Positions 18,791 to 54,371 of a stretch of DNA of 64,000 nt are shown here, piece by piece. The translations under genes were made by a program, and so were the position numbers. Position 1 is the stretch's first letter. Every line of letters begins with the position of its first letter. The stretch is from contig NZ_JAGSYG010000009.1 in NCBI RefSeq assembly GCF_025685655.1, positions 1 to 64,000 of the forward strand, written 5' to 3'. This DNA comes from Acidicapsa ligni. GTDB taxonomy: Bacteria > Acidobacteriota > Terriglobia > Terriglobales > Acidobacteriaceae. The notes under the pieces are model-generated. The model was given only the letters and a program-made list of their open reading frames with translations. It was not told the origin of the DNA and searched no databases.

Positions 18791-19367
18791 GCCTCGAAGA
18801 CGCTTCAGGATCTGAGCTAGAAATTATCTCGCGGGCGGGGCCTATCGAAATAGCCCGGTGCGCCTTGTCGTGAAGTCCGACCTGGGTTCCGCGGCCTCAG
18901 TGGATCAATTGAGCTACCGGATGCAACCGGAATCCCAAACCCCAACGGCTCATCTGCAGTATTGTCGTGATCGCCCCACTTGGCACAGGCCCTTCATACA
19001 GCTATCAACCCGACAGGAAGTACGCAGGATTTCATTGGACCGACGACCCGGACCCGGAGTGGCCTTGCGGCTCACCGGACTAGATTTGCTTTTGACACAG
19101 GCGTTTCGGCCAGCGGCCTTCTTATAGAAACCTATAATTGTGTCCCGCTGGCCGGCGTGTGCATAGTGATGTATCCGCTGATGGAAGTGCTTCCGAGCGT
19201 CTCTTGGGGCAGATCGGCATTGGAGACTGGCTCGCTTTCGGTCGGGCAAAGCGCTTTCAGATCAAGAGTTCAGCAGGTGACCAATAAGGTCTGGGCTCTC
19301 ATCGAGACCGTTGCCTTAGTAGAGACGTCATGCTGCGGATGGATGAACCGACGACGAAAGGGCTCTG
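18791..19367 (+). other. 577-bp stretch without a supported gene
   Basis: Only short ORFs without recognisable features. It contains the perfect palindrome at 19122-19137 described separately and a TTGACA at 19092-19097. It separates the accessory block from the mandelate racemase-like gene. Confidence 0.5.
19122..19137. promoter_or_regulatory. TTATAG-N4-CYATAA palindrome, copy 1
   Basis: TTATAGAAACCTATAA, a perfect 6-bp inverted repeat with a 4-bp spacer. It lies 230 bp upstream of the mandelate racemase-like gene and is one of four near-identical sites. Its right half contains TATAAT if read one base further, so part of it might be a -10 element. Confidence 0.6.
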
Positions 19368-20462
19368 ATGGTTAACTTGGGCGGCATCAAGAGAGCGAAT
19401 ATCCGAGCTGTGATCGTACCTCTGCGAAGGCCGGTGATTGCCGACATCGGTGAGTTCCGCCAGTGGCCTCTGATCCTCGTAGACCTAGAACTAGCCGATG
19501 GCATAGTCGGCTCAAGCTATATAGCGCCCTATCGTGCCAGCGCGATTTCTTCGGTCGTTGCCGAAATCCGCGACATCGTTCATCAAATGGAGGACCGCAC
19601 CGGCCCATTCGATGCATTTCAGACCGCGCGGAAGGCGCTCAATGTCATCGGGGTAAGTGGTGTATCAACACTCGCTTTGGCTGCGGTCGACATGGCTCTA
19701 TGGGATGCGTTGGCAAAGCAGGCCGGACTGCCTCTCGCGTGCCTGCTGGGAGGAACCGTCGGCGCCGTTCGTGCCTACAATAGCAACGGACTTTGGCGGC
19801 ACCGAGTAGACACATTGGGGACCGAGGCGCGCGAGTTGCTGGGAGAGGGCGGCTTCACCGCACTCAAACTCCGTCTCGGAAACGAACGTCTTCAAGACGA
19901 CCTAGCTGCGATAAACGAAGTGCGAAACGCTGTTGGCTCCCACATCGACATCATGGTCGACTTCAATCAAGCCCTCGGACTGGGGGATGCGATACGACGA
20001 TGCTGCGGCCTTGACGACCAAGGTCTCTATTGGATTGAAGAACCGATCATCTACAACAATATCGCTGGATACGCTGAGATCGCGAAGCGGGTCAGGACGC
20101 CGTTGCAGATGGGTGAAAACCTTTACGGCGAACGCGACTTGATGAACTTCGTCCAGGCAAAGGCAGTGCACTATGTCATGCCCGACCTCATGCGCATCGG
20201 TGGAATTAGCGGTTGGCTACGCACATCCGGCGTGGCATCGGCAGCGGGAATTCAGATGTCGAACCATCTTTATCCAGAAATCTGCGCTCATCTCCTGCGC
20301 GTCACGCCAACGGCTCACTGGCTCGAGTATGTAGATTGGGCGAGCCCGATTCTTGCAGAGCCCCTGACGCCGATCAAAGGAGAAATCTCCGCAATCAACA
20401 GGCCAGGAATTGGCATCTCGTGGAATGAAGAAGCCGTCACCAAATATGCAATCCCTGTCTAA
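19368..20462 (+). CDS. Mandelate racemase homologue with KxR instead of KxK
   Basis: A 364-residue enolase-superfamily protein closely resembling Pseudomonas mandelate racemase from memory. Metal ligands and partners are visible in IMVDFNQ, WIEEP, MGENLYG and MPDLMRIGG; the Asp-His dyad is D273/H300 (SNHLYPEICAHLL) and the WLE glutamate follows. The strand that holds the S-specific base reads ALKLRLG: K167 is kept but the second lysine (K166 of the reference enzyme) is R169. The benzoylformate decarboxylase homologue follows, so a mandelate-type pathway is likely. AAAGGG precedes the ATG. Confidence 0.85.
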   Translation: MVNLGGIKRANIRAVIVPLRRPVIADIGEFRQWPLILVDLELADGIVGSSYIAPYRASAISSVVAEIRDIVHQMEDRTGPFDAFQTARKALNVIGVSGVSTLALAAVDMALWDALAKQAGLPLACLLGGTVGAVRAYNSNGLWRHRVDTLGTEARELLGEGGFTALKLRLGNERLQDDLAAINEVRNAVGSHIDIMVDFNQALGLGDAIRRCCGLDDQGLYWIEEPIIYNNIAGYAEIAKRVRTPLQMGENLYGERDLMNFVQAKAVHYVMPDLMRIGGISGWLRTSGVASAAGIQMSNHLYPEICAHLLRVTPTAHWLEYVDWASPILAEPLTPIKGEISAINRPGIGISWNEEAVTKYAIPV

Positions 20463-20516
20463 TTAGTCCTTCGTAGATATTCCGATCGCTGCACCACCAA
20501 ACAAGTGAGGTAACGA

Positions 20517-22151
20517 ATGGCAACCGTAAGGGAAGTTCTTTTCGATTTGATGCGGCAACTCGGCATGACGAAGATCTTTGGCAACGTAGGCTCGACGGAA
20601 GAACCGATGCTGAAAAGCTTCCCAAGAGACTTCGAATACATCCTCGCGCTTCAGGAGTCGGTCGCTGTCGCGATGGGAGACGCCTATGCCCAAGTCTCCG
20701 GCAAAGTTGCACATGTCAATCTGCACACGGCTGCGGGCAGCGGCAATGGCATGGGAAACATTGAGACCGCATTCTACAATCGAACACCCATGATCATCAC
20801 TGCAGGTCAACACATGCGCGAGATGCTCATCCATGAGCCCTATTTGACCAATAAGAACCCGTATAAACAGGCTGAACCATGGGTGAAATGGAGCTATGAG
20901 CCAGCCCGCGCCGAGGACGTGCCTGCGGCTTTTCTAAGGGCATACGTCACTGCCATTCAGGCTCCCGCTGGGCCGGTATACCTTTCGCTTCCGATGGATG
21001 ACATGGACAGGGAGTGTGCTGGACTTCCTCTCCCACGAAAGATCGAAGCTCGACTCTCTGCGGGAAAAGATGTGTTGCAGACGGTTGCCGACGCACTCGC
21101 AGAGTCAAAGACACCCGCCCTGGTCTTTGGCGGCGCAGTGGACCAGACTGGCGGCTGGTACGACGCGGTCGCGCTCGCCGAGAAGCTGAATGCGGCAGTA
21201 TGGGCGGCCCCCTTCGAAGGACGGCCGGGCTTCCCAGAGAATCATCCTCTCTTCCGCGGCGGGCTCCTCAGCGGCATGAGTTCTATATGCAAGCAGCTCG
21301 AGGGGTATGACCTGGTTGTGGTCATCGGGGCGCCCGTGTTTCGTTACTATCCCTACGCTCCAGGCGCTCCCTTACCGAAAGGCACACGGCTTTTCCATCT
21401 GACCGACAGTGCAGAGGAATCTGCCCGCGCTGTCGTGGGAGATAGCATCGTCTGTGATCCTGCACGCGCATGCGCGACACTCGTTGAGCTTTTGCCCGCT
21501 ACGTTTCGGAGTGCTCCCGAACCGGTGCCGCCGTCCCCAGAGGCCGCCGCTGGGGAGACTATTACAGCGGACTACCTTTACTACCTCGTTGGCAAACTTC
21601 GTCCAAATGATTCGGTGATTGCACAAGAATCACTCTCGACGCTTGGCCAGCTCAAAGATCGTATTCGCACGACTGAGCCTCGGTCGTTCTTCTCTATGTT
21701 CAGTGGTGTGCTCGGATATGGCTTGCCAGCCGCTGGCGGTTTGGCACTAGCAGAACGAGAGCTGGGCACAAATCGGAAGGTGATTTGCCTGGTGGGTGAT
21801 GGAGCGGCCCAATACGTCATCCAGTCTTTTTGGACAGCAGCCCAGCACGAGTTGCCAGTTCTTTACATCGTGCTGCGTAACCATGCGTATAACATTCTCA
21901 AATCGTTTAGCAAGTACCTCGTTGCGCCGGAGGTTCCAGGCTTTGATCTACCGGGCATCGACATCGTACAAATCGCGAAAGGGTACGGATGCAATGGTGC
22001 CTATTGCTCGAAGCCGTCTGAATTAGAAGACGCGATCATCGAAGGGCTTCAGTCGCCTCTTCCCTATGTTCTCCAAATAGAGATCGATGCCACTGTTCCG
22101 GCGCTACTAGGGAAGATTGGACCCGAAACGCAGTACGAGCTTCCGAGGTAG
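20517..22151 (+). CDS. mdlC: Benzoylformate decarboxylase homologue (ThDP-dependent)
   Basis: A 544-residue thiamine-diphosphate enzyme. Numbering runs level with Pseudomonas benzoylformate decarboxylase at S26 (GNVGST), E47 (ALQESVAVAMGDAY) and H70 (NLHTAAGSGNGMG); the ThDP motif is VGDGAAQYVIQ through RNHAYNI. The second catalytic histidine of the reference (H281, in FRYHQY) is replaced by Y278 (FRYYPY). The expected reaction is decarboxylation of an aryl 2-oxoacid to an aldehyde. It lies 54 bp after the racemase homologue, probably in one transcript. Confidence 0.88.
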   Translation: MATVREVLFDLMRQLGMTKIFGNVGSTEEPMLKSFPRDFEYILALQESVAVAMGDAYAQVSGKVAHVNLHTAAGSGNGMGNIETAFYNRTPMIITAGQHMREMLIHEPYLTNKNPYKQAEPWVKWSYEPARAEDVPAAFLRAYVTAIQAPAGPVYLSLPMDDMDRECAGLPLPRKIEARLSAGKDVLQTVADALAESKTPALVFGGAVDQTGGWYDAVALAEKLNAAVWAAPFEGRPGFPENHPLFRGGLLSGMSSICKQLEGYDLVVVIGAPVFRYYPYAPGAPLPKGTRLFHLTDSAEESARAVVGDSIVCDPARACATLVELLPATFRSAPEPVPPSPEAAAGETITADYLYYLVGKLRPNDSVIAQESLSTLGQLKDRIRTTEPRSFFSMFSGVLGYGLPAAGGLALAERELGTNRKVICLVGDGAAQYVIQSFWTAAQHELPVLYIVLRNHAYNILKSFSKYLVAPEVPGFDLPGIDIVQIAKGYGCNGAYCSKPSELEDAIIEGLQSPLPYVLQIEIDATVPALLGKIGPETQYELPR

Positions 22152-22236
22152 AGATCTGAGATCAAGAACGGGGAGAGGGACTTCGACGGCCATTGAGTCA
22201 AATGCCGCCGGCGCTCAACGTTGACTCGCCCACGGA

Positions 22237-22827
22237 TTATGCGCCGTCTCGCGCTACGATGCCCTCCTGTTGCAAGAGCAGAGTCAGCTTCCGCCGGAAC
22301 TCCACCTGGCCCCCTCGCGCAGGATGGTTGATTGGCTCCCGGTTCAAGATGCGGATCCCTTCATTGCGAAGTGGCTCCGCGCAGACCGTATACGTGAGAA
22401 CGCCTATCAAGATGACGGGAGTCTGTGTAACGCCGACGAGTGCCTTTACTTCTCTACGCGTGATCGGCAATGTCGCTTCCAATCGCCGGCGCTTCGCGAC
22501 GGTGCTCGCTGCCTCCGGCATCGGCTGATCGGAGGCATCAATGAGATAAAAGCCGTCGTCTTGAAATCTCTTCAGCCAGCGGGCTTTCGTCCTTCTGATG
22601 TCTGCCACCCGGATCCTCTCATTTCTCTCATCCGATTCGCGATCGTTTGTTCCGAAGTACAAGACCTTCATCATTTCGAGAAAAAGAGTATCGGCTCGAT
22701 GAACATCCGGGAAATAGAAGAATCTTCCAGTTTCAAATGCAGGAGGCGCTTCTGCGACGAAAACAGCGCGGAACTGTAGAGGTCGATATCTTCGCAGAGC
22801 CGCCTCGAAATGTGACGCGTAGGCCAT
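22237..22827 (-). CDS. hypothetical protein, uracil-DNA-glycosylase-like motifs
   Basis: A 196-residue protein. The strand RAVFVAEAPP resembles the GEAPG motif of uracil-DNA glycosylases, FYLIDAS could be the following strand, and INHPARGG near the C-terminus resembles the HPS-type motif. Spacing is unusual and I cannot place it in a named group, so DNA-glycosylase function is only a suggestion. It is transcribed opposite to its neighbours and starts close to palindrome copy 2. Confidence 0.55.
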   Translation of the reverse strand: MAYASHFEAALRRYRPLQFRAVFVAEAPPAFETGRFFYFPDVHRADTLFLEMMKVLYFGTNDRESDERNERIRVADIRRTKARWLKRFQDDGFYLIDASDQPMPEAASTVAKRRRLEATLPITRREVKALVGVTQTPVILIGVLTYTVCAEPLRNEGIRILNREPINHPARGGQVEFRRKLTLLLQQEGIVARDGA

Positions 22828-22925
22828 GACGAACTAAGGATAAGCTTTGTTCCACTATCGTTGGAATCGGATGATTAACCAAAGCGTCAGATGTGAGCCA
22901 ACGTACAAGCCAGTTTTCGACGGCA

Positions 22926-22941
22926 CTATAGAAAACCATAA
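22926..22941. promoter_or_regulatory. TTATAG-N4-CYATAA palindrome, copy 2
   Basis: CTATAGAAAACCATAA, one of four related sites, in the divergent region between the minus-strand gene at 22827 and the small membrane protein at 23091. One mismatch in each arm relative to the perfect copy. Confidence 0.6.
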
Positions 22942-23090
22942 TAGGATTCGGTGAAGGTCCGCACTATGATGCTTGCGATACGCAAGAAGTGTATGGCCGC
23001 AACCTCTCTCCCTCAGTTCTTCCTTGCCCGAAGCCGTCTGAATGCGAACGCCGAGCTCTCTTGCCTATTCATGTCTTCCATACAGGTGCA

Positions 23091-23318
23091 ATGACAATGA
23101 ACGATCAGGAAGTTGGAGAATCGCTTGGTCCCATCGACAAGCCGGGTAGACTTACTCTCCTGTTGGAGTGGCTAGCCAGAGGGTTCATCGATACGTTCGG
23201 AATTACTCACCCGAAGCCCCGCGAGGAGAAGAGAGCAGCGTACTTTATCGTGTCCGTACTCATCCTCGGGCTCGGGCTGATCGCATTCGTGTTCTTCGTC
23301 GTCGTGCGGCGAATGTAG
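23091..23318 (+). CDS. small single-pass membrane protein
   Basis: A 75-residue protein with one C-terminal hydrophobic segment (AAYFIVSVLILGLGLIAFVFFVVV) followed by RRM, and a soluble, charged N-terminus. The ATG at 23091 is two codons before another ATG (23097); either could be used. Nothing else is recognisable. It sits between palindrome copies 2 and 3 and upstream of Dps, so it may belong to a stress set. Confidence 0.6.
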   Translation: MTMNDQEVGESLGPIDKPGRLTLLLEWLARGFIDTFGITHPKPREEKRAAYFIVSVLILGLGLIAFVFFVVVRRM

Positions 23319-23366
23319 CAGTTAGCCTTCGACCTTCGCTCGGAGCGGAGTGCGAACGTTTCTACG

Positions 23367-23382
23367 TTATAGAAACCCATAA
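23367..23382. promoter_or_regulatory. TTATAG-N4-CYATAA palindrome, copy 3
   Basis: TTATAGAAACCCATAA, 60 bp upstream of the Dps start chosen here. An in-frame ATG at 23382 overlaps its last base, one reason for rejecting that start. Confidence 0.6.
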
Positions 23383-23441
23383 TGGCGCTCGAGCGATCCG
23401 TTACCGCATATTCGCTAGAGCGAATCGCCACAGGGGGATCA

Positions 23442-23960
23442 ATGGAAACTGGGAAGGTGAGTGCAAGTGCAACGCAGAGTTCGGGATCGCCTCTGACGGA
23501 AAGCTCGGGTGAATCAGCTGCTGCAATTGGCGAGGCACTGCGTTATCTCTTGGCGGATGTCTTTACGCTCTATCTGAAGACGAAGAACTTCCATTGGCAT
23601 ATGAGCGGACCATATTTTCGCGATTACCACCTGCTACTGGATGAGCATGGTGATCAATTGTTTGCTATGACAGATCCGATTGCAGAACGCGGCCGAAAAC
23701 TTGGAACTCTCACACTGCATTCCATCGGCGAGGTGGGCCGTCTGCAGCGAATCAGGGACGATGACTCGAGCCGGGTCGACGCGCCGACGATGTTGTCATT
23801 GCTCTGCGTGGACGAGCGGCACCTGGCATCGTCGATGCGCGCCGTGCACACTCTCTGTGATCAATCCGGAGATGTGGCGACCGCCAGTCTTCTCGAAAAC
23901 TGGATTGACGAAAGCGAGCGCCGTTCCTGGTTCCTGGATGAGATCACGAGTCGTTCCTAA
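23442..23960 (+). CDS. dps: Dps-family ferritin-like protein
   Basis: A 172-residue Dps miniferritin that stores iron and protects DNA against peroxide. The core helix has LYLKTKNFHWHMSGPYFRDYHLLLDEH and ends IAERGRKLG. The ferroxidase His and Asp residues are present; the usual Glu four residues after the Asp is Asp here (LLLDEHGDQLF). The first 25 residues are Ser/Thr/Ala-rich, as in DNA-binding N-termini. The ATG at 23442 has AGGGGGATCA upstream and lies 60 bp after palindrome copy 3. Confidence 0.9.
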   Translation: METGKVSASATQSSGSPLTESSGESAAAIGEALRYLLADVFTLYLKTKNFHWHMSGPYFRDYHLLLDEHGDQLFAMTDPIAERGRKLGTLTLHSIGEVGRLQRIRDDDSSRVDAPTMLSLLCVDERHLASSMRAVHTLCDQSGDVATASLLENWIDESERRSWFLDEITSRS

Positions 23961-24178
23961 TATCCGTTCGAGAGAGTTGCGGTGAGAATCCAGAAAAACA
24001 GGCAAGTGCGTCTCAGATCTCGGCCGACTGGGCCAGCTCAGTCGGGAACCCTTATTTCGCTTACCGCTAGAATCATTGAGTAGGCATGCAATTGAGATGG
24101 CGGAAATCAAATTGACGCCCACGTCTCCGGTAACTCGGGACGCACAAGTCCGAACACTTCAGTTCGGGGGGTGAAGAG

Positions 24179-24823
24179 ATGCAAAATGTAGAAGGCTCGA
24201 TCTGTTTGGTTGACGATGATCTCGGCTTTCGCGAGGCTTTGACGGAACAGTTGTATTCACTGGGATTCGTCATTACCTCTTACGGGTCTGCCGCTGAGTA
24301 CCTCAGTGCCCGGACTGACGCGGCAGTTTCCTGTCTTATCCTGGATCTCCATTTGCCCGATATCAACGGGCTTGAGTTGCAGCGTCAACTCGCATCCGGG
24401 GAAGCTCCACAGATCGTGTTCATTAGCGGCCGAGGTGATATTCCATCGAGCGTCCGGGCGATGAAGGCAGGCGCCGTCGAGTTCCTCACGAAACCCATCG
24501 ATGAAGACGCCCTCCTAAAAGCAATCCATGCGGCATTGGCAAAATTCCGAAGGCAAAAAAGGCATCGGGACATCTTCCTCTCATTGAAGCAACGTTTCGA
24601 TTCGTTGACGCCGCGGGAAAAAGAAGTGTTTCCTTTGATCATCGGCGGAGCGCTCAATAAACAGGCGGCTGCAGCATTAGGCATCCAAGAAGTGACGATT
24701 CAAGTACACAGGTCACAGATCATGAGAAAGATGGAAGCGGCCAGCTTTGCGGACTTGGTGAGAATGGGAGTCAAACTCGGCATTTCTCCGACTCGGCTGT
24801 CCCCAACGCTTCAAAGCCGCTAA
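24179..24823 (+). CDS. FixJ-type response regulator (receiver + LuxR HTH)
   Basis: A 214-residue two-domain regulator. The receiver (about residues 7-125) has VDDD at the acidic pocket, LILDLHLPDINGLEL with the phospho-accepting Asp, FISGRGD with the Ser switch and FLTKPID with the Lys. The LuxR-type output domain runs LTPREKEVFPLIIGGALNKQAAAALGIQEVTIQVHRSQIMRKM. Its partner kinase may be the PAS kinase at 33686-36088, which is not adjacent. It lies in the middle of the four-palindrome region, so it is one candidate for binding these sites. Confidence 0.9.
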   Translation: MQNVEGSICLVDDDLGFREALTEQLYSLGFVITSYGSAAEYLSARTDAAVSCLILDLHLPDINGLELQRQLASGEAPQIVFISGRGDIPSSVRAMKAGAVEFLTKPIDEDALLKAIHAALAKFRRQKRHRDIFLSLKQRFDSLTPREKEVFPLIIGGALNKQAAAALGIQEVTIQVHRSQIMRKMEAASFADLVRMGVKLGISPTRLSPTLQSR

Positions 24824-24889
24824 GTGAATTCGTATATACCAGCAGCATCAACGTGCCAGTGCTCGGAAGTTGTGCGGGAGGCGTCCCAC

Positions 24890-25255
24890 ATGATAGCGAT
24901 TGTCGATGATGACTTCCGGATTCGTGAGTCTCTCGTAAATTTGCTTGAGGCTGAAGAATACGCCGTGAAAGCCTATTCATCTGCCGAAGAATTTATCGCA
25001 GATAACGAACGTACCGTCGTGGATTGCTTAATTTCCGATATCTCTATGCCGGGCATTGGAGGATTGGAATTACTACAACGGATGCGGTCAGAGCATCCTG
25101 CGATTCCGGTCATTATGATTACGGCACGCGGCCGTCGATTTGATGAAGAGCCCTTCATAAAGGCCGGAGCACAAGCCATTCTTCACAAACCCTTTGATTG
25201 TGCCGAACTCCTTCATGCGGTTACGAACGCTTTGGCCGCACGGCGTCGCCAGTAG
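24890..25255 (+). CDS. single-domain response regulator
   Basis: A 121-residue stand-alone receiver: IVDDDFRIRESL, CLISDISMPGIGGLELLQRM with the phospho-Asp, VIMITARG with the Thr switch, and ILHKPFD with the Lys, so it should be phosphorylatable. It is probably co-transcribed with the FixJ-type gene 66 bp upstream; an in-frame GTG start at 24824 exists, but GGGAGG 8 bp before the ATG at 24890 supports the shorter form. Without an output domain it may act as a phosphate sink or protein-binding switch. Confidence 0.85.
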   Translation: MIAIVDDDFRIRESLVNLLEAEEYAVKAYSSAEEFIADNERTVVDCLISDISMPGIGGLELLQRMRSEHPAIPVIMITARGRRFDEEPFIKAGAQAILHKPFDCAELLHAVTNALAARRRQ

Positions 25256-25595
25256 GTCGGCCCCCTTTCTGCGGAGCGGATAGGTCTGACGACGAGCGCT
25301 CAACTCGTGAGCAGGATAACCGTGAATGCTGGATAAATTTACATCGAGGCGGACGAGGAGACTACCTTCGCGAACCGATATTCAAGCGTTCTTATAGAAA
25401 ACCATAATGGTTCGCCGTGGCCGACTACAGTTAGGATCGCTTCATCAATGCATCGATGCGGTCTCATGCACGAGAGACCGCCTTGCAGTGATGGCAGTTT
25501 ACCCAGTCAAGTGATTGCGGAAGACGCAACAACTCATCCGTAAGATTGACCCGGCTGCTGACCTTACACGACCAGCAGTTCGGCAAAGGAGCGAG
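25256..25595 (+). other. 340-bp leader region of the hydrolase gene
   Basis: No supported gene. It contains palindrome copy 4 at 25392-25407 and a hairpin-like GTCTC-atgcac-GAGAC at 25460-25475. It is presumably the promoter and leader of the hydrolase gene at 25596. Confidence 0.5.
25392..25407. promoter_or_regulatory. TTATAG-N4-CYATAA palindrome, copy 4
   Basis: TTATAGAAAACCATAA, followed by TGG as at copy 3. It lies 189 bp upstream of the exported alpha/beta hydrolase start. Confidence 0.6.
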
Positions 25596-26591
25596 ATGAA
25601 CAACGATTCCAAGGGCAATCTTCCAGAAACTCCTGCATTCACTCGACGCTCAGTTCTCGTTGGCGGTGCCATGCTCGCTGCCTCAACACAGCTCCCGGGC
25701 ATAGCCTTTGCTCAGTCAAGCCACATTGCGGGCGCTCCCGGCACCAATCACAATGCTTCAGGAGGAAATCAAATGAGCTATATCACGACGAAAGACGGGA
25801 CTTCGATTTACTACAAGGACTGGGGTAAAGGACCCGTGATTACCTTCTCTCACGGCTGGCCCCTTAACGCCGATGCATGGGATGGCCAGATGCTCTTCCT
25901 GGTGCAAAACGGCTACCGCTGCGTTGCACATGACAGACGCGGCCACGGCCGGTCCAGTCAGGCCGCTACCGGCAATGATATGAATGGCTATGCCGACGAT
26001 CTAGCCGCCGTCATTGAGCATCTCGATCTCAAGGACGCGACTCTCATCGGTCATTCGACCGGTGGCGGAGAAGTCGCACGGTATGTGGGTCGGCATGGGA
26101 CCAAGAGGGTGAAAAAGCTCGTTCTGCTGTCCGCCGTACCGCCAGTCATGCTCAAGAGTGATTCCAACCCCGACGGCCTGCCTATGGAGGTCTTCGACGG
26201 AATCCGTAAGAGCACATTTGACGATCGCTCTCAATTCTGGAAGGACCTGGCGGTGACGTTCTTTGGGGCGAACAAGGGCACCAAAGTCTCGCAGGGGCTC
26301 ATCGACGAGTTCTGGCTATGGGGCATGCAATGCGGCCTCTTGAATGCGTATGAGAGCATCAAGGCCTTTTCCGAGACAGACATGACCGAGGATTTGAAGA
26401 AGATCGACGTGCCGACCCTCGTGTTGCACGGAGAGGCTGACCAGATCGTCCCCATCACGGATTCTGCGTATAAATCAGCCAAACTGATCAAGGGCGTCAA
26501 GGAAATTTATTGGCCCGGCGCGCCCCATGGGATGTTCGCTACCCATCAAGATCAGGTTAACGCCGCCTTGCTTGAGTTCATTCGCAGCTAA
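25596..26591 (+). CDS. Exported alpha/beta hydrolase (non-haem haloperoxidase-like)
   Basis: A 331-residue protein with a twin-arginine signal ([16 protein letters not shown], cleavage near AFA-QSS) followed by an alpha/beta hydrolase domain. The catalytic triad is S in GHSTGGG, D in HGEADQIVP and H in [23 protein letters not shown] and DRRGHGRS are typical of the cofactor-free chloroperoxidase/esterase group. These enzymes act as esterases or perhydrolases. AGGAG lies upstream of the ATG at 25596. It is the first gene of a long same-strand run of redox and hydrolytic genes. Confidence 0.88.
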
Positions 26592-33685: not shown

Positions 33686-36088
33686 TCAGTACAAAGGTAA
33701 CGTAAAAAAGAATGCCGCCCCGTTCGGCTCGTTGTTAGCGGCCCAAAGCTTTCCTTCATGGGCCTCGATGATGGACCGGGAAATCGCTAGGCCCATTCCC
33801 ATCCCGTTCTCTTTTGTCGTCACAAAAGCTTCGAACAGGTTCTCCGTGCCATTCAATCCTGCCCCGTTGTCCCGAACCCCAACTGTAAGTTGGGAGCCAT
33901 TCCAGCGCGACTCGATCATGATGGCCGGCTTTTGAGGGGGATTGTCCTGTAGCGCATCCAGGGCATTCTGTATCAGGTTGATGATGACCTGCTGAACTTG
34001 AACACGATCGGCACGCACGAGTGGCAGATCTTCCTGCAAATCTCTCCTCAACACGACCTTACTTGTTGCCCTCTGCGCCCGCATAAGCCGTAAGACCTCT
34101 TCGATCAGGTCTTCGAAATCGAAGGACGTCATGCGGGGCGTCGCATTCTTAAAAAGGGCCTGGATGCGATGTACGATGTCCGCTGCCCGTTTGCCATCCC
34201 GAATAATACGTTCAGCGCTAAGCCGCGCACGGTCGATGTTGGCATGCTCGTTCTGCAACCACTTACTGCAGGCATATCCATTCGCAACAATCGCCGCAAG
34301 GGGTTGGTTGATCTCATGTGCAATCGACGCCGAAGCTTCGGCTATCGCGACGAGTTGAGAAGTCTTGGCTAATTTCGCATGGGTACGATAGAGACTTTCG
34401 GCAGCATTCTTACGATCCGTTATGTCGGTATTGAGTCCATACCAATGCACGACGTTTCCTTGGCTGTCCATCAAGGGTTCACAGCGAACATGAAACCACC
34501 GATATGTGCCATCGAATCTCAAAAGCCGATGCTCAATCTCGTAAACCTCGCCTGTTTGAATCGATCGCTCCCAGGCTGCAATCGTCACATCGAGGTCATC
34601 CGGATGAATCATCGTGTGCCAACTTGAGGTGAAGTACGCTAGATCTCGCCCCGTGTATTCGACGACTCGCCGATTCAAGTAGCTGGGGGTTCCATTCGGG
34701 AAGGATGACCAGACAAGACCCGGCAACGTATCGGTCACCAGTTGGATATGCTTATCGCGCTCACGCAGAGCCTCCTGGGCTCGTTTGGTCTCATCAATGT
34801 CGAGGTTTATCCCGTACCAGCGCAGAATTTCGCCGGTCTCGCCGAATACCGGCTCCGCTCGAACATGAACCCATCGATAGACTCCATCGAATCGTCTGAG
34901 TCGATGTTCAGAGTCGTACAGAATTCCTTTTTTCATCGCATTTCGATAGATCAGTCCGGTCGCCTGCAGGTCATCAGGATGGATGTATTTAGCCCACCCC
35001 GATGCTCTGATTTCACTCAACGTGTGCCCTGTAAAATCCAGCACTCTTTGGCTGATGTAGTCGGGCTCGCCGTCGGCTGCCGCGGTCCAGACCATTGCAG
35101 GCAGAGTCTCCAAAAGCCGGCGGAGCTGGATCGTGCTTTGTTCGACAGCTTGCTGTGCACTGCGTGTTGCTTCAACGTCCAGAAGCAGCGCATACCATTT
35201 GAGAACTTCTCCGTCGAGGCCAAGAACAGGCTGATTCAGAACCTCGAACCATCGGTATTCCCCGTCAAAGCGCCGCAGGCGGAAAGATTCATACTGTGGA
35301 CGCTTGTACTCGATGCAGTCCAACCATCCACGTACGATTCGCTCTTTGTCGTCAGGATGTAAGCGCTCTGCCCACCCAAGAGCGCGAAGTTCAGATATGT
35401 CCGCGCCCACGTAGTCGAGCACCTGTTTGTTGACATAATCGAGTTCGCCACTGGCATCATTGACGACGATCATGCCGGGAATTCTCTCTAGCGTCAGCCG
35501 GAGTTCCTGCTCATTACGCTCGAGGGCAACTTCCATTTGCTTCCGATCTTCGATATCGGTGGTGACGGTGTACCACCGAAGCACCTCTCCGTTGCGGCCG
35601 TGGAGTGGTTCAGTGCGTGAATGAAACCATCGGTAGACGCCATCGTGACGACGTATGCGTAGATCATGCTCCTGGGGTGAGCCCGATTCTCTTAGAACTT
35701 GCCACGTATGGTCCCGGACAGCAGCGTCATCCGGGTGAACGCATGCGCGCCAATCGTTCCTGATCGTCTCAGCGGTCTTGCCAATGTAGGTGCACACGTT
35801 GGGGCTGATGTAGCCAATGTTTCCCTGTGCGTCCGCACTCCAAAAGAAGCCCGGCAACATCTCAATCGGCAGGCTATCTTCGCGACCCTTTTTATGTGTC
35901 CTCGCTGTGACCCATCCGATGCAAAACGATACGAAGCCGACGAGTGCAAGAACCGCCACGAGGGAGAAGGTTTCGCGTTCCGAGAGCCGTTGGCTCAACT
36001 GGACCAAAGCATTCAAGCAGGACCTCCTTTGTCCGTCGATGTCCCGAACAACTGGCTCATCGTGGATGCAGACGTGCTCCCATACCAC
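33686..36088 (-). CDS. Multi-PAS sensor histidine kinase
   Basis: An 800-residue kinase. A single hydrophobic segment (LVAVLALVGFVSFCIGWVTA) near residues 42-62 anchors it; four tandem PAS/PAC units follow (each with HPDD and RRFDG-YRWFH-type signatures), then HisKA with ASIAHEINQPLAAI near residue 590 and the ATPase lobe with IINLIQNALDAL, RDNGAGL and GMGMGLAISRSI. PAS repeats suggest sensing of redox, oxygen or small ligands. The start is a GTG at 36088 and is uncertain. No response regulator is adjacent; the FixJ-type one at 24179 is a candidate partner. Confidence 0.9.
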   Translation of the reverse strand: MVWEHVCIHDEPVVRDIDGQRRSCLNALVQLSQRLSERETFSLVAVLALVGFVSFCIGWVTARTHKKGREDSLPIEMLPGFFWSADAQGNIGYISPNVCTYIGKTAETIRNDWRACVHPDDAAVRDHTWQVLRESGSPQEHDLRIRRHDGVYRWFHSRTEPLHGRNGEVLRWYTVTTDIEDRKQMEVALERNEQELRLTLERIPGMIVVNDASGELDYVNKQVLDYVGADISELRALGWAERLHPDDKERIVRGWLDCIEYKRPQYESFRLRRFDGEYRWFEVLNQPVLGLDGEVLKWYALLLDVEATRSAQQAVEQSTIQLRRLLETLPAMVWTAAADGEPDYISQRVLDFTGHTLSEIRASGWAKYIHPDDLQATGLIYRNAMKKGILYDSEHRLRRFDGVYRWVHVRAEPVFGETGEILRWYGINLDIDETKRAQEALRERDKHIQLVTDTLPGLVWSSFPNGTPSYLNRRVVEYTGRDLAYFTSSWHTMIHPDDLDVTIAAWERSIQTGEVYEIEHRLLRFDGTYRWFHVRCEPLMDSQGNVVHWYGLNTDITDRKNAAESLYRTHAKLAKTSQLVAIAEASASIAHEINQPLAAIVANGYACSKWLQNEHANIDRARLSAERIIRDGKRAADIVHRIQALFKNATPRMTSFDFEDLIEEVLRLMRAQRATSKVVLRRDLQEDLPLVRADRVQVQQVIINLIQNALDALQDNPPQKPAIMIESRWNGSQLTVGVRDNGAGLNGTENLFEAFVTTKENGMGMGLAISRSIIEAHEGKLWAANNEPNGAAFFFTLPLY

Positions 36089-38553: not shown

Positions 38554-39510
38554 TTAGAGGGTTCCGGCACCGGTCTGACGCTCGAAAGGAGACTGGTTTG
38601 GCGCACGCACTTGGAAGCGGTCCAGCCTACGCATAAAGGATCTAACGAGTGCGCTCATCATCTTTGATCGATTGTCTGATCTCGAAATCAAATAGGTCTT
38701 CAAGGAGAGTGGGTCTTCCGCAAGGGGACGCACCGTCACACCATCACGCGCGATGCGGAGGGCACCAGTTTTTACAACGAAGGCGACGCAATCCCCCTCG
38801 GATACGAACGGGAATGCCTCTTCTGGCGCCGTGATGTGCTGAATCTTATGGGGCATGCTCCCTTTGACTTCCGCCGCGATCATCACGTTGTCGTAGAGCG
38901 TCGGATGTAGTCGTCGCTCGAACAGAATCCAGCACCGATCAGCCAGTTGCTCGAAAGTGACATAGGCATGACGCGCCAGGACATCATCTACTGACATCGC
39001 GATATAGAAGGGGACCTCTGCGATCTTGGCCGTTGTCAGCAGCGGTGATTCCGGAGGCTCTGTGGCGATAGCCAGATCGAGTGCTCCGGCAAGGACTTCA
39101 TGGGTCAAATCGAACGAGTATTGGCTCGAGAGTTCAATTCTCATTTGAGGGAATCGCGAGCGTTGAACCGAGAACAGCGTCGAGGACAGGAAGGGATCGG
39201 TATAGGGGGACCTGCCGACATGAAGGATCAGATCTGCACCTTGCATTGCGGCACGGGCGGCTGTGAACGCTCGATCACTATAAAGAAGTGCGACGCGCGC
39301 GTGTTCGACATAGGCGCGGCCCGCTTTGTTGAGTTGTACCCTCTTACGGTCCCGGTCGAAGAGTCGTCCTCCCAGCTTCGCCTCGAGATCCGCTATATTG
39401 CGCGAAATCACCGGTTGGCTGACATGCACTTTTTGTGCTGCCAGAGTGAAGTTCAGCTCTTCCGCTAGCGCAATGACCGATTCCATATCCCTTGTTTCGT
39501 TGCGTGCCAT
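38554..39510 (-). CDS. LysR-family transcriptional regulator
   Basis: A 318-residue LysR regulator. HTH: MESVIALAEELNFTLAAQKVHVSQPVISRNIADLEAKLGGRLFDRDRKRVQLNKAG; effector domain with ILHVGRSPYTD and AGALDLAIATEPPESPLL. The ATG at 39510 has GGGAGG 7 bp upstream, so the much longer in-frame extension is rejected. It lies beside unrelated genes; a target may be the divergent stretch to its right, though no gene starts there for 550 bp. Confidence 0.9.
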   Translation of the reverse strand: MARNETRDMESVIALAEELNFTLAAQKVHVSQPVISRNIADLEAKLGGRLFDRDRKRVQLNKAGRAYVEHARVALLYSDRAFTAARAAMQGADLILHVGRSPYTDPFLSSTLFSVQRSRFPQMRIELSSQYSFDLTHEVLAGALDLAIATEPPESPLLTTAKIAEVPFYIAMSVDDVLARHAYVTFEQLADRCWILFERRLHPTLYDNVMIAAEVKGSMPHKIQHITAPEEAFPFVSEGDCVAFVVKTGALRIARDGVTVRPLAEDPLSLKTYLISRSDNRSKMMSALVRSFMRRLDRFQVRAPNQSPFERQTGAGTL

Positions 39511-40066
39511 ATCCCAACCTCCCATTGCTACTCGACGGTTTGTGGGATGAGACGAAACTGGCTGCTTTGTCTGGACATCGGTATTTGGAATCACCTGGGA
39601 ACGTCCTACAAGGTCTTGCGGATACGTGGCAAACAATCGGTCTAAACTGTGGTTTGCTCGGAGACAAAGGCCATCCCATCGCCGGATGACAATGTACTTT
39701 AGACGCACGCAAATGGCCCTGGGACACTAAAGATAACGTCAGGAAAGGGCTCTTATACCCTGTCGCTATAACAGACCCTCAAATCTGCATTGGACTTCGT
39801 TGCGGCGATGGAGAATCGTATTCCTAAAGAGTGCGGTAAGGCTGCCTGCCAGGGAATCAGCCCTCCAAGATGTTCGATCAGGGCATTCAGTAGTGGCATG
39901 AATCTCCGGCTTTGTGGCCAGCACTCCCTGGAGAAAGGTCATGTCGCAACACAGCGCATCTGTGCGCCATACCCTTTCTAATTCAGCATCCACTGCCGGA
40001 ATCCTCGACTACCGGCGCACTAAGACCACCCTGTTGCTGGTGGTGCTAACGATGTAGGACTCCTCT
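39511..40066 (+). other. 556-bp stretch without a supported gene
   Basis: No recognisable coding sequence; short ORFs on both strands look random. TTATA-N9-TATAA at 39753-39771 is a loose inverted repeat that may hold a promoter (TATAAC) for the gene at 40067 or a regulator site. Confidence 0.45.
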
Positions 40067-41916: not shown

Positions 41917-42897
41917 ATGGCGAAGGTAGCAGTATTGGATGATTGGCAAGGCGTTGCAAAGAGCAGCACAGATTGGTCGGCGTTGTCCGCGATCGCCGAT
42001 GTCATCTTTTTCGAACGCGCATTTCAGAACGAAGACGATACAGCTGCGGCACTCTCAGACTTCGAGGTAGTGCTTTCCATGCGCGAACGTACGCCGCTCC
42101 CGGCCTCGCTGATCAACAGGCTTCCCAATCTGCGAATGCTCGGCATCACAGGCTCGTCGAATGCAGTGCTCAATCTTGCAGCCTGCACAGCGAAAAACAT
42201 TGTTGTGAGCAACACAACCGGTCATGGCGGAAGCGAGGCATCCACTGCGGAGTTGGCTCTCGGTCTTCTTCTTGCGGCAGCTCGCGCCATACCTGCTGCC
42301 GATGCCAATATGCGAGCAGGCTACTTTCAGGAAGATCTGCCGGTGGGTATTTCTCTGGCAGGAAAGACAATCGGAATCCTCGGGCTTGGACGGCTTGGCT
42401 CGCACATGGCCCGCTATTGTCAGGCTCTCAATATGACGGTGGTGGCGTGGAGCGAGAATCTTACCGTAGAGAAGGCGCGAGCAGCAGGCGTTGCTCTCGT
42501 CTCGAAAGAGGAATTGTTCTCGACCTCCACTGCCATCAGCATCCATCTTGTACTTTCGCCGCGTACGCGTGGTCTGATCAATGCGTCCGATCTGGCTCGG
42601 ATGAAGCCGGGAGCAATCCTGATCAATACTTCCCGCGGTCCTATCGTGAACGAGACGGCTCTCGTTGAGGCGGTGCAGGCGCGTCGCATCATCGCAGCTC
42701 TCGATGTATATGACCGTGAACCGCTGCCTCAAGACCATCCTTTGAGGAGTGCTCCCAACACGGTCCTCACGCCGCACCTCGGCTACGGTGTGCAGGAGGT
42801 ATGGAGAGAGTTCTACGGGCAGAGCGTCGAGAACGCGCTGGCGTTCCTCAAAGGAAAACCTGTACGTGTCGTGAACGCCGAAGTTCTTCGAGCCTGA
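41917..42897 (+). CDS. D-2-hydroxyacid dehydrogenase, copy 1
   Basis: A 326-residue NAD-dependent D-2-hydroxyacid dehydrogenase. The cofactor loop is GILGLGRLGSHMARYCQ; catalytic residues are R in INTSRGPIVNE, E in YDREPLP and H in LTPHLGYG. It is collinear with the protein at 59641-60621, with about 80% identity by hand count and no gaps, so the two are recent paralogues. The start has GAGGAGACGCG upstream, also shared with the second copy. The upstream exonuclease remnant shows that the duplicated unit was longer than the gene. Confidence 0.92.
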   Translation: MAKVAVLDDWQGVAKSSTDWSALSAIADVIFFERAFQNEDDTAAALSDFEVVLSMRERTPLPASLINRLPNLRMLGITGSSNAVLNLAACTAKNIVVSNTTGHGGSEASTAELALGLLLAAARAIPAADANMRAGYFQEDLPVGISLAGKTIGILGLGRLGSHMARYCQALNMTVVAWSENLTVEKARAAGVALVSKEELFSTSTAISIHLVLSPRTRGLINASDLARMKPGAILINTSRGPIVNETALVEAVQARRIIAALDVYDREPLPQDHPLRSAPNTVLTPHLGYGVQEVWREFYGQSVENALAFLKGKPVRVVNAEVLRA

Positions 42898-43076: not shown

Positions 43077-44006
43077 TCAGTCTTGCGCTTGATGGAGGCC
43101 TGAACTGGCGAAGACTCTGAATTGTAGGCACCGTTGAAGCCCTCCAGGATCGAAGAAAAGCGGATACACGCAGAGCATGTCCCACTGGAACATCGGAATG
43201 TTTAATGCGTATTCCAGTGAGAGGTGGAAGAGCAGGCCCGCTATGAGCAACGGTGTGCGAAACGGCTTGAACCAGACGAGGAGAGGAAATACAAGCTCGA
43301 AGCACAATGCAAGCCATGTGCCTAGATGCAAAGCCCACGATTGGAGGATGAAGGCCGGCAGGGGAAATCGTGCTATCTCCCGAAGGTGCACGACGTAGAA
43401 CAGGGCCGTTCCGTTGCGCCATGCCGCTCCCTTCAGCTTCCAACAGAAGCCGGCGAGGTACACAATCGCCAGTTGAAACTGGATTAGGCGTTGTGCCCAG
43501 GGAGGGTAAAGCCGTCCTTTCGCGCCGGGCCCGGATGCGTGGCGTCGCCGCAGTACGCTGTCCAGTGACAGCGCCGCTCCGGCTGGAGCGAAGACCAAAA
43601 AGAATGCCACGGCCCGCAGCAGCGTGTCACCACCATGCAGGATCAGTGGGTTTCTTTGGTTTAGAGAGTTGAGACCGAGATATACGATTACCGTGCTTAG
43701 CCGTGTTGCGAGGCCGAGCGTTAATGCAATAGAGGCGGCGAGAAGGAGCCAGTAAAGTCCGACCACCCAGCGATCGTCGCGGGGGATCAATGGAAAGAGG
43801 TCGAGGCGGAAGCCCGATTCTGCCTTGCCAATCGTCTCCATGCTAACCCAGCCTTCGACGCCAAACCAAGCGAGCCAATCGCGATGAAGAAACAGGAGTG
43901 TGGCTCCGACACAAAAGCCGAAGAGTATTCGGAAGAGGCCCAGAGGGTATGGTGAGATTGGCTTGAAAAAGAAGTCGGCGAGTATGGAGGGGCTGCGTTT
44001 GTTCAT
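43077..44006 (-). CDS. HTTM-domain membrane protein
   Basis: A 309-residue integral membrane protein of the HTTM family (related to vitamin K-dependent gamma-carboxylase), with about seven hydrophobic segments; PLGLFRILFGFCVGATLLFLHRD, STVIVYLGLNSLNQRNPLILHGGDTLLR and WDMLCVYPLFFDP are typical. Bacterial members are linked with DCC-type or fatty-acid-modifying partners; function unknown. The gene overlaps its upstream neighbour by ATGA (44003-44006), so the two are a translational pair. Confidence 0.85.
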   Translation of the reverse strand: MNKRSPSILADFFFKPISPYPLGLFRILFGFCVGATLLFLHRDWLAWFGVEGWVSMETIGKAESGFRLDLFPLIPRDDRWVVGLYWLLLAASIALTLGLATRLSTVIVYLGLNSLNQRNPLILHGGDTLLRAVAFFLVFAPAGAALSLDSVLRRRHASGPGAKGRLYPPWAQRLIQFQLAIVYLAGFCWKLKGAAWRNGTALFYVVHLREIARFPLPAFILQSWALHLGTWLALCFELVFPLLVWFKPFRTPLLIAGLLFHLSLEYALNIPMFQWDMLCVYPLFFDPGGLQRCLQFRVFASSGLHQAQD

Positions 44007-44599
44007 CGCTGGTCCTCCGGCTCGAGGCTCTGTTGGGAAACAATGGTCGGCTTAGCGCCGGCTTCGTTCCCAACTAGACCTTTGGCAGGATCAATCGGCG
44101 AATCAAACCTAACGAGAATCACCCGGTCAGGCGGATCGGATGGGCTCATGGACACACGCCGCGCCGCTTCCTTCTCTATGTCCGGCCAAAGGCCCGAACA
44201 GTCCTTGCACAGAACACTCTCTACAAATTTGCGGTAACGCTCTTGGCTGTACCGCTGCCAAAGAGATAGGTCTTCCATCCTCGGGAACGAGTAGACCTCC
44301 ATGTTTCCGCTTCGGGCAAACACGATCGCCTTGAGAAACTCTTCCTCTGATTTGGGATTTGGGGCAAAGGTATCGTACATCTCGTTCAGACCCACGCACC
44401 GGGTGTAAGGGGAGAGGAAAGCCAGCAAGTACGCAGGAACGACACCGAGCGGGAGTGCGAAGGCCAGAATAGCGACCAGGTGGAAAGCCACAAATAGGGT
44501 TGTAACGACTCGGACAATACGACGGGAATCGCTGCTCGCCCCGTTTCGGGAATCATTGGGCTTTGGTGTGTGACTCTTTTGCGATCTCGCCAGCTTCAT
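44003..44599 (-). CDS. membrane-anchored partner of the HTTM protein
   Basis: A 198-residue protein with one N-terminal hydrophobic segment (VVTTLFVAFHLVAILAFAL) and a C-terminal extracytoplasmic domain containing a CxxC pair (LCKDCSGLWPDIEK). The order partner-HTTM with ATGA overlap suggests a two-component membrane system. The ATG at 44599 is used; an in-frame ATG seven codons earlier is an alternative. No named family. Confidence 0.75.
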   Translation of the reverse strand: MKLARSQKSHTPKPNDSRNGASSDSRRIVRVVTTLFVAFHLVAILAFALPLGVVPAYLLAFLSPYTRCVGLNEMYDTFAPNPKSEEEFLKAIVFARSGNMEVYSFPRMEDLSLWQRYSQERYRKFVESVLCKDCSGLWPDIEKEAARRVSMSPSDPPDRVILVRFDSPIDPAKGLVGNEAGAKPTIVSQQSLEPEDQR

Positions 44600-45042
44600 A
44601 TCTCTCGTCGTCCTTCGCATTGTGGTGAACCGGATAGCTGCGAAGGCACAGACGAATGGCCGGCGTTCCGATGGAGTCCCGTGCTTGCAGGCGCCACGGA
44701 GCTGTTTGGCTAGGGTTGGACGAAAAAACTGCTATTCCGGCGGCCATCGATTCTTCAACCAATAGAGACTTTAGGTCGCTGATCATTTGTTGTTCCCACC
44801 GCACGGGTATAACGTACCATCCGGATGGAGGCCGCACCATTATGTCTTCCTATACCTACCCGCCCGCGGCACTGGTTCGGCGGACGGCGAGTGCGGATCC
44901 GGAGGCGCAACAATTTACTTGGCCGTAACGTTAGTGTTCTTCCGGCATGATTGTCTTGGGACGCACAACTGGTTGGGTTGAATCGAAAGGATGCATTCCC
45001 AGCCGGGACGATAACCGATCCGGTATGGCCTCTACGAGCTGG
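44600..45042 (+). other. about 440-bp stretch without a supported gene
   Basis: Short ORFs on both strands show no motif, signal peptide or ribosome-binding support. The stretch lies between the HTTM pair and the Rrf2 gene, both transcribed leftward, so it may carry the promoter of the HTTM pair. Confidence 0.4.
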
Positions 45043-49731: not shown

Positions 49732-51159
49732 TCACCTCCAGCCGCCTCCCAGCGCACCGTAGAGGTTCACAAGGGTGAGCGCCTCAATTTGCTGGATCGT
49801 TGTCAGGTTAAGTTGAGCTGAGAAGAGGTTTGAGTCGGTCGTAAGCACCTCAAGATAGCTTGTCGCGCCGCTTGCGTAACGTGCTCTCGCGAGCCGCGTG
49901 GCATCCTCAGCTGCAGCTACGAGCAATTCCTGTTGCTCCCTGGCGTCGCGTTGTTTACGAGCCGCTATCAGCGCATTGGAAACATCACGGAAGGCTGTGT
50001 AGATGGTTTTGAGGTAGTTCGCGACCATCTCATCTTTCTGCCTCTGGGAGAGAGTCAATTGGCCGCGAAGTCTGCCACCCTCAAACAGAGGCTGCGTTAG
50101 CGAACCAATTCCGTAAATGGTCCGGGCTGATGGATTGAAAAGGGACGAGAGCGTGTCTCCTCCGACTCCCCCGGATGCACTGATAGACACCTGAGGGAAA
50201 AACTGAGCCTTGGCTACTCCGACCTGGGCATTCGCCGCACGCAATTTGGCTTCTGCTTGCTGGATGTCGGGTCTTCGCTCAAGCAACTCAGAAGGTACGC
50301 CCGTCGGAAGCTTTTCAGGGGGTGGGCTCAAAGCATGAGGGGCAGTGTGGAGAACAACGCCCGGTTCCTGCGCAAGCAGGAGCCGCATTGCATTCTCATT
50401 TTGTTGTATCTGTTGCTCGATTTCTGGAATCTGCGTCGTGGCTGTATAAAGCAGTTGTTCGGCCTGACGTACATCTGAGAGTGGTGCATCGCCAGCTTCT
50501 TCCAGCCTGCGGGTCAGATCAGCGGAATTTCGACGCGCTTCCACTGTCCTTCGGGTGATCTCTAATTGGCGATCAAGGGCTCGCAGCTGGATATAAGTCG
50601 TCGCCACCTGCTGCACGAGGCTCACTCTCACTGCGCGTTGAGCCCAGACCTGAGCCATCATTTGTTCTCGTGCTGCTTCGGTTTGCCTTCTATAGAGTCC
50701 CCAAAAGTCAGGCGTCCAACTCGTCGAAAGGCTCAAACTACCGTCGGCCAGAGGACTCTCCACGATGTTGTTCAGTGAGTTCCCCAAGTTGGCTCCGAGA
50801 CCAGTTCCTCCGACCGTAATCTGAGGAAATGCCTGGGAGCGTGTGATCTGGACCTGTGCCCGCGCCTCGAGCACGCGCTCCGCGGCGATCCGAAGGTCGA
50901 AATTATTCGCCAATGCAGCCCGAATCACATCTTGTAGCTCTGGCTCGCGGAAGATGTCTGACCATTGCTGGTCTCCCAATGAATCTTTTGTGTCGTTGGA
51001 TGTCTGCGCATTATCGACGGCCCGGAAGGCCGGCGGCGGTTGGATCTGCGGTCTTACGTATTTTGGACCGACGGTGCAGCCGGTCGCCCCAAGGAGTACC
51101 AACAGTGAAGCCTTCGCAAGCCGATCCCGCGTTGCAATGATCCTTCCTGTCGCGGTCAA
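49732..51159 (-). CDS. RND efflux outer-membrane lipoprotein (NodT/OprM family)
   Basis: A 475-residue TolC-like lipoprotein. The N-terminus ends in a lipobox (LLGATGC, Cys near residue 28) followed by TVGPKYVRP. The two repeats of the OEP family are seen in DLRIAAERVLEARAQ and AEAKLRAANAQVGVAKAQFFPQVS, with FEGGRLRGQLTLSQ and SYLEVLTTDSNLFSAQLNLT near the end. It forms the outer-membrane duct of the RND pump encoded upstream. The start is TTG at 51159, overlapping the permease stop by 4 bp. Confidence 0.93.
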   Translation of the reverse strand: MTATGRIIATRDRLAKASLLVLLGATGCTVGPKYVRPQIQPPPAFRAVDNAQTSNDTKDSLGDQQWSDIFREPELQDVIRAALANNFDLRIAAERVLEARAQVQITRSQAFPQITVGGTGLGANLGNSLNNIVESPLADGSLSLSTSWTPDFWGLYRRQTEAAREQMMAQVWAQRAVRVSLVQQVATTYIQLRALDRQLEITRRTVEARRNSADLTRRLEEAGDAPLSDVRQAEQLLYTATTQIPEIEQQIQQNENAMRLLLAQEPGVVLHTAPHALSPPPEKLPTGVPSELLERRPDIQQAEAKLRAANAQVGVAKAQFFPQVSISASGGVGGDTLSSLFNPSARTIYGIGSLTQPLFEGGRLRGQLTLSQRQKDEMVANYLKTIYTAFRDVSNALIAARKQRDAREQQELLVAAAEDATRLARARYASGATSYLEVLTTDSNLFSAQLNLTTIQQIEALTLVNLYGALGGGWR

Positions 51160-54368: not shown

Positions 54369-54371
54369 CGT

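Follow-up and report, generated by a model that had tools for sequence, protein, structure and literature searches.

In a gene cluster of Acidicapsa ligni, a PAS-type sensor kinase and a FixJ-type response regulator very probably activate a private local regulon through their own operator, a TATAG-N4-CYATA dyad. The DNA analyzed comprises positions 1-64,000 of contig NZ_JAGSYG010000009.1 (assembly GCF_025685655.1, genome size 5.68 Mb), and this whole stretch of 64,000 nucleotides is called the window. Binding, activation, the kinase partner and the signal are what we infer from the comparisons below. In the mechanism that we propose, the PAS kinase would phosphorylate the FixJ-type regulator encoded in the cluster, for which the dyad would be the operator. 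A dimer of its GerE domain would bind just 5' of promoters in which a -10-like hexamer is seen and no -35 element is recognizable, and the phosphorylated regulator would recruit RNA polymerase (class II activation). This would switch on a private, local, stress-type regulon composed of dps, an exported hydrolase, a small membrane protein, a racemase/decarboxylase pair and probably an operon near 44 kb. The gene content points to oxidative or electrophile stress as the likely signal. An earlier sequence-only reading had proposed a regulon of the FixJ-type protein; this is supported by the confinement of the copies to the cluster, by co-occurrence in other genomes and by the FixJ tree, with binding as a prediction.

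Candidate operators in the gene cluster

The genes concerned are the following.

19368-20462, + strand: mandelate racemase/muconate lactonizing enzyme family protein (Pfam MR_MLE_N, MR_MLE_C)
20517-22151, + strand: benzoylformate decarboxylase-type ThDP enzyme (NCBIfam NF005485; score 609 bits, cut-off 493)
23091-23318, + strand: 75-aa protein with one hydrophobic stretch near the C-terminus, no Pfam match
23442-23960, + strand: Dps-like ferritin-fold protein (Pfam Ferritin; NCBIfam Dps models match below their cut-offs)
24179-24823, + strand: FixJ-type response regulator, the proposed binder (Pfam Response_reg PF00072, 2e-22; GerE PF00196, 1.1e-15)
24824-25255, + strand: CheY-like single receiver (Pfam Response_reg); in relatives this gene lies directly behind the operator
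25596-26591, + strand: alpha/beta hydrolase (Pfam Abhydrolase_1), predicted to be exported from an N-terminal export-type signal read by eye
33686-36088, - strand: multi-PAS sensor histidine kinase, the proposed partner (Pfam PAS, HisKA, HATPase_c)

With a GerE (LuxR-type) helix-turn-helix behind its receiver domain, the regulator belongs to the FixJ/NarL family; against the NCBIfam FixJ model (NF006900) it scores 168.3 bits, below the cut-off of 255. The kinase gene lies 9 kb away from fixJ. Its relatives adjoin fixJ in five other genomes, and it shares about 40% identity with the kinase encoded beside fixJ in locus L009. The decarboxylase gene probably forms one operon with the racemase-family gene, and the 75-aa protein is predicted from its hydrophobic stretch to sit in the membrane. 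Two closely similar genes elsewhere in the window (41917-42897 and 59641-60621, + strand, 326 aa each) resemble D-2-hydroxyacid dehydrogenases by eye, and three genes at 49732-55637 (- strand) resemble, again by eye, an RND efflux system with outer membrane factor, pump and adaptor.

Four sites upstream of these genes are candidate operators.

19122-19137, + strand: site 1, TTATAGAAACCTATAA, a perfect 6-4-6 palindrome, 5' of the racemase-family and benzoylformate decarboxylase genes
22926-22941, + strand: site 2, CTATAGAAAACCATAA, first base C instead of T, 5' of the gene for the 75-aa putative membrane protein
23367-23382, + strand: site 3, TTATAGAAACCCATAA, 5' of dps
25392-25407, + strand: site 4, TTATAGAAAACCATAA, 5' of the gene for the alpha/beta hydrolase with predicted export

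The sequence-only reading had placed all four in gaps upstream of genes, and they were found there again, each 5' of a plus-strand gene. Since a T follows each site, the four have the 16-mer TATAGAAAMCYATAAT in common. The genome-wide scan that this reading had called for returned four exact copies in 5.68 Mb, all within one 6.3-kb stretch of the window and all on the plus strand, in the same direction as the plus-strand genes downstream. The copies are thus not spread at random through coding DNA. With up to two mismatches allowed, four additional matches appear outside the cluster, and a reversed control pattern likewise gives four. A first-order Markov model with the composition of the window predicts 8.6e-6 exact copies of the shared element per 64 kb and 7.6e-4 per 5.68 Mb. 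When TTATAGNNNNCYATAA is searched in the window with up to two mismatches, 12 matches are obtained, each of the four sites contributing on either strand; 100 shuffles give 1.76 on average and never more than 6. Together, shuffles, genome scan and Markov expectation rule out a chance origin of the sites. The related pattern TATAGAAANCYRTAAT, with at most one mismatch, recovers the four sites and one copy with one mismatch on another contig (C2:74165), where the hexamer described below is absent.

In the family sample of 200 genomes the exact element is present only in the genome of the window and absent from the other 199. This disposes of the concern that it is merely a common promoter element, an explanation that the genome scan and the lack of TTGACA/TATAAT pairs rule out as well. 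The same count gave a first hint that the motif is confined to the Acidicapsa ligni genome, an idea that was dropped after one base had been relaxed and the relatives of FixJ had been traced.

Promoter architecture

A -10-like hexamer follows 22-23 nt past the last base of each of the four sites.

19162-19167, + strand: hexamer of site 1, CATAGT, spacer 23 nt, predicted start about 19174
22965-22970, + strand: hexamer of site 2, TATGAT, spacer 22 nt, predicted start about 22977
23407-23412, + strand: hexamer of site 3, CATATT, spacer 23 nt, predicted start about 23419
25432-25437, + strand: hexamer of site 4, TAGGAT, spacer 23 nt, predicted start about 25444

With the hexamer set as -12 to -7, the center of the 14-bp dyad is computed to lie at -43.5 (22-nt spacer) or -44.5 (23-nt spacer) relative to these predicted starts. 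This is the position at which NarL-type activators sit, and the element appears directional and placed as the operator of a class II activator would be; such operators adjoin or overlap the -35 region, with centers around -41.5 to -44.5. Between 18900 and 26700 no sigma-70 pair (TTGACA, 16-18 nt, TATAAT) was found, against 4.3 in shuffles, and no -35 element is recognizable. An ATG at 23382 overlaps the 3' end of site 3, yet it precedes the predicted start at about 23419; the start codon of dps is likely the ATG at 23442, which follows a GGGGG stretch. For site 2, the sequence-only reading had left the choice between the membrane-protein gene and a UDG-like gene (22237-22827, - strand), whose 196-aa product has no Pfam match at E 0.01. 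The direction of the hexamer favors the membrane-protein gene, and the UDG-like gene was rejected as a target because the hexamer faces the opposite way.

The same reading had seen no copy elsewhere in the window. This holds for exact copies; a fifth, degenerate site keeps the downstream spacing of the other four.

44839-44854, - strand: probable weak fifth site, TATAGGAAGACATAAT; its hexamer TACGTT (44811-44816) follows after 22 nt
43077-44786, - strand: possible operon behind site 5 (77-aa ORF, 205-aa ORF, HTTM-domain protein)

The pattern TATAG-N7-TAAT-N22/23-YANNNT has five matches in the whole genome, all of them in the window: the four sites and 44839-44854, which is, judged from this layout, probably a weak fifth operator of the same kind. 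In G183, G044, G102 and G131, four further genomes from the genus, the pattern has no match. Over ten genomes it gives 18 matches, of which 14 lie in FixJ clusters and the other 4 outside them; controls give 3. With four matches outside clusters and three in controls over ten genomes, one chance match per genome is possible; that it should fall inside the window is unlikely, as the window makes up about 1% of the genome.

Operator and regulator in other genomes

Among the best 80 of 519 relatives of the FixJ-type regulator, the TATAGAAA form of the operator was found in only three loci, and these belong to the closest relatives (L009, L010 and L011, all acidobacterial assemblies, with 63, 60 and 59% identity). 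In all three it lies at the end of fixJ, 5' of the CheY-like gene, and a second copy lies 5' of an araC gene. These two copies are the only ones that TATAGAAANCYRTAAT with at most one mismatch finds in each of the three genomes. The operator overlaps the stop codon of fixJ in L009 (10604-10619), L010 (7742-7757) and L137 (3643-3658), and in L010 and L137 the stop codon is the TAG of TATAG. When up to three mismatches were allowed and the five loci with the window's own sites were left out, the loci of the FixJ relatives gave 15 matches against 6 in the control. A match with two mismatches occurs once each in L051 and L074, that of L074 being the TATAC-type site after its fixJ.

In a class sample of 399 genomes, 11 contain TATAGAAANCYRTAAT, and the control matches once. 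These 11 are the genome of the window; G484, which is counted as one with G534 (the genome of L009), since the match lies at the same coordinates in both; G504; G321; and seven genomes in which the copy is unlinked. In G504 and G321 the operator lies beside FixJ, CheY and kinase genes; in the seven others, no FixJ, CheY or kinase gene occurs within the 1.6-3 kb fetched. All 12 linked sites from six genomes (10 exact, two with one mismatch) have YANNNT at 22-23 nt, and ten have TANNNT. This count leaves out site 5 of the window and G504 6161746, both of which were found through the spacing. The seven unlinked exact copies of the class sample have TANNNT at this distance in no case and YANNNT in one (CAAAAT, L126).

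The sequence-only reading had linked the FixJ-type protein to the sites by position; this link gains strength from five other genomes in which the operator occurs together with the closest relatives of the protein, and from the FixJ tree. In all, the operator accompanies a clustered FixJ-type regulator in six genomes, and these regulators belong to one clade.

The genes behind the sites are arranged differently in the window and in the relatives. The sites of the five related genomes stand 5' of cheY-like genes and, in four of these genomes (L009, L010, L137, G504), of araC as well. At the fixJ-cheY junction of the window itself, no such site is present. A dps gene (54-55% identity; L009, L137) and the hydrolase gene (61-64%; L009, L010, L137, L135) are part of the relatives' cluster, and no such site was found 5' of either; for the window hydrolase, identity is 61% to that of L009 and 64% to that of L011. 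The gene order suggests that dps and the hydrolase gene are under direct control in the window and are controlled via AraC in the relatives. If this is true, the two genes bear the operator themselves in the window, and an araC gene bears it in the relatives.

Variant arms and a shared layout

When 75 FixJ relatives are placed in a tree, the six operator-linked regulators fall into one clade of 12 rows (support 100/99). For five rows of this clade (L012, L104, L144, L150, L161), scans of 3.6 to 20 kb revealed no operator of the TATAG type, and one extra row is a second FixJ of the G504 cluster, which lies about 4 kb from its operator.

Elements of the same design with other arms adjoin other FixJ genes. 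Between about 20 nt before and 170 nt after the ends of 121 distinct FixJ-like matches, NATA-N7-RTAAT occurs 18 times. TANNNT follows at 22-23 nt in 14 of these cases, and all other offsets from 8 to 45 together yield 3 matches. The variants include full dyads with altered arms (TATACCAAAGTATAAT, TATACGCAAGTATAAT) and less symmetric forms (TATATGAAGACATAAT, AATACAAAACGATAAT). The arms are of the TATAC type in G183, a genome of the same genus, and G188, and of the TATAT type in G066 and G119, with the spacing unchanged. The pattern TATA-N7-RTAAT-N22/23-TANNNT matches three times each in G000, G183 and G504, and all nine matches lie about 21 kb or less from FixJ genes on the same contig. No match was found in five other genomes of the genus, and controls gave 0. 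Local arrays are also seen with the loose pattern, with six matches plus two CATAG-type elements on the 34-kb contig of G066 that holds its FixJ gene, and four matches within 11 kb in G188.

At the scale of the class, the loose family-wide pattern is not specific. It gives 64 matches against about 52 in the control and was for this reason not used as a sole detector. Of the 27 new loci that it yielded (L188-L214), each fetched as roughly 1.7-3 kb of sequence, 11 contain a match to FixJ or CheY and the remaining 16 do not. In 1.65 Mb of loci, TANNNT stands at 22-23 nt in 30 of 63 loose elements (14/18 after fixJ, 16/45 elsewhere), a figure that is biased, since four of the 16 come from loci fetched with the spacing itself, and that is not used as a count.

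Several of the genes behind variant sites were identified: a DUF417 gene in G504, a DUF1348 gene in G183 and, in G066, also a 2-hydroxyacid dehydrogenase gene. On contig G066:C7 (L215, L216), genes for encapsulin, a Dyp-type peroxidase and a YflT-domain stress protein stand behind TATAT-type sites, and a FixJ gene lies midway along the contig. On G188:C20 (L217), four TATAC-type sites lie 5' of SnoaL-like, alpha/beta hydrolase, multicopper oxidase and CheY-like genes, and a FixJ/kinase module adjoins them. In locus L139 (G000 C1), a minus-strand CATATAAATACATAAT element near 9348 is followed after 22 nt by TAGAGT and lies about 1.3 kb from a FixJ paralogue of this genome; of the ORFs close by on its downstream side, the longest resembles a sigma factor by eye.

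The letters of the recognition helix, VTLQVHRGQIMRK in four close relatives, suggest that a recognition code may exist. L090 and L016 have nearly the same helix and yet TATAC-type sites, and we therefore claim no rule that links helix and operator. On balance we lean slightly towards a general reading, in which FixJ-type regulators of this bacterial group would govern local regulons through one layout (dyad, 22-23 nt, -10) with arms private to each clade, the window being one diverged instance. If this is true, several paralogous kinase/FixJ systems could share one cell without cross-talk.

Alternative explanations

The FixJ-type protein might bind as a repressor, so that the stress genes stay silent until release, or have another main role such as autoregulation. 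Placement next to a promoter fits this too, and NarL-family proteins can repress. The absence of a recognizable -35 element, however, suits activation, and known regulators activate from like positions: StyR-P activates from a high-affinity site at about -40 (PMC2442086), and NarL at E. coli ogt is bound at -44.5 of the promoter that it activates (PMC7419079). We regard repression or another main role as improbable. It is also quite improbable that RNA polymerase with an alternative (ECF-type) sigma factor reads the element directly as a core promoter, no response regulator being involved. Such a promoter would account for a directional site 5' of genes, for the -10-like right end CYATAAT and for the lack of an ordinary sigma-70 pair, but it would leave unexplained the distinct -10-like hexamer 22-23 nt beyond the site. 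Moreover, the factor common to the loci with the TATAG form, in the scans made, is the FixJ/CheY module, variant elements adjoin other FixJ genes, and no sigma-factor gene was recognized among the annotated cluster genes, a subset of the ORFs.

An AraC-type or LysR-type regulator is a very unlikely binder. The araC gene behind one copy in L009, L010, L137 and G504 speaks for the former and a LysR gene in the window (38554-39708) for the latter; yet neither the window nor the 16 kb read from G321 contains a match to that AraC at E 1e-10, and both have a FixJ-type gene. Finally, near-identical copies in a small region might be remnants of a small dispersed repeat with no regulatory meaning. This is scarcely credible, as the flanks of the four sites are unlike each other apart from the hexamer, exact copies are absent from the rest of the genome, and the element recurs at promoters in other genomes. 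Activation by the PAS kinase/FixJ-type pair thus remains our preferred reading.

Comparison with known systems

The search of open-licence papers (subscription journals were outside its scope) found no published description of the motif, and the motif string is absent from the texts searched. Searches of these papers for StyR, TodT, NodW, ErbR and NarL boxes gave no operator that matches the element, and for NodW they gave no operator. Nor was an open-licence paper found that treats FixJ together with CheY-like, Dps and PAS proteins.

The combination of a PAS-type kinase with a receiver-GerE regulator resembles StyS/StyR and TodS/TodT, the Pseudomonas systems of the FixJ/NarL family for aromatic catabolism. 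StyR and TodT boxes have ATAAAC arms, and the window system differs from both in operator sequence and in targets. It shares with NarX/NarL of E. coli a GerE-domain dimer, predicted here, on an inverted repeat just 5' of the promoter. The NarL operator is of the 7-2-7 type with the consensus TACYYMT-N2-AKRRGTA, whereas the sites of the window, with TATAG and CYATA arms four bases apart, do not fit it. In addition, the NarL regulon is global and that of the window is local. NodW-type regulators of rhizobia are also close, since plasmid matches at 53-57% identity include a gene annotated nodW. From FixJ proper the window protein is set apart by its score under the NCBIfam cut-off. In Caulobacter FixL/FixJ, the kinase is subject to feedback from FixT, a single-domain receiver (PMC7078487). 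The window likewise pairs a FixJ-type regulator with a single-domain receiver, and in the relatives the operator is directly 5' of the CheY-like gene. By analogy, the CheY-like receiver might exert a FixT-like feedback.

Judged against these systems, the cluster appears to hold a new regulon of a known kind, for which the computational case is clear and of which the spacing rule and the clade-specific operators are the most interesting part. A sequence oddity thereby becomes a testable regulatory unit. The spacing rule makes it easier to spot the promoters that FixJ-type regulators would control in the neighborhood of the regulator genes, and the clades offer natural pairs of regulator and operator for the study of shifts in GerE-domain recognition.
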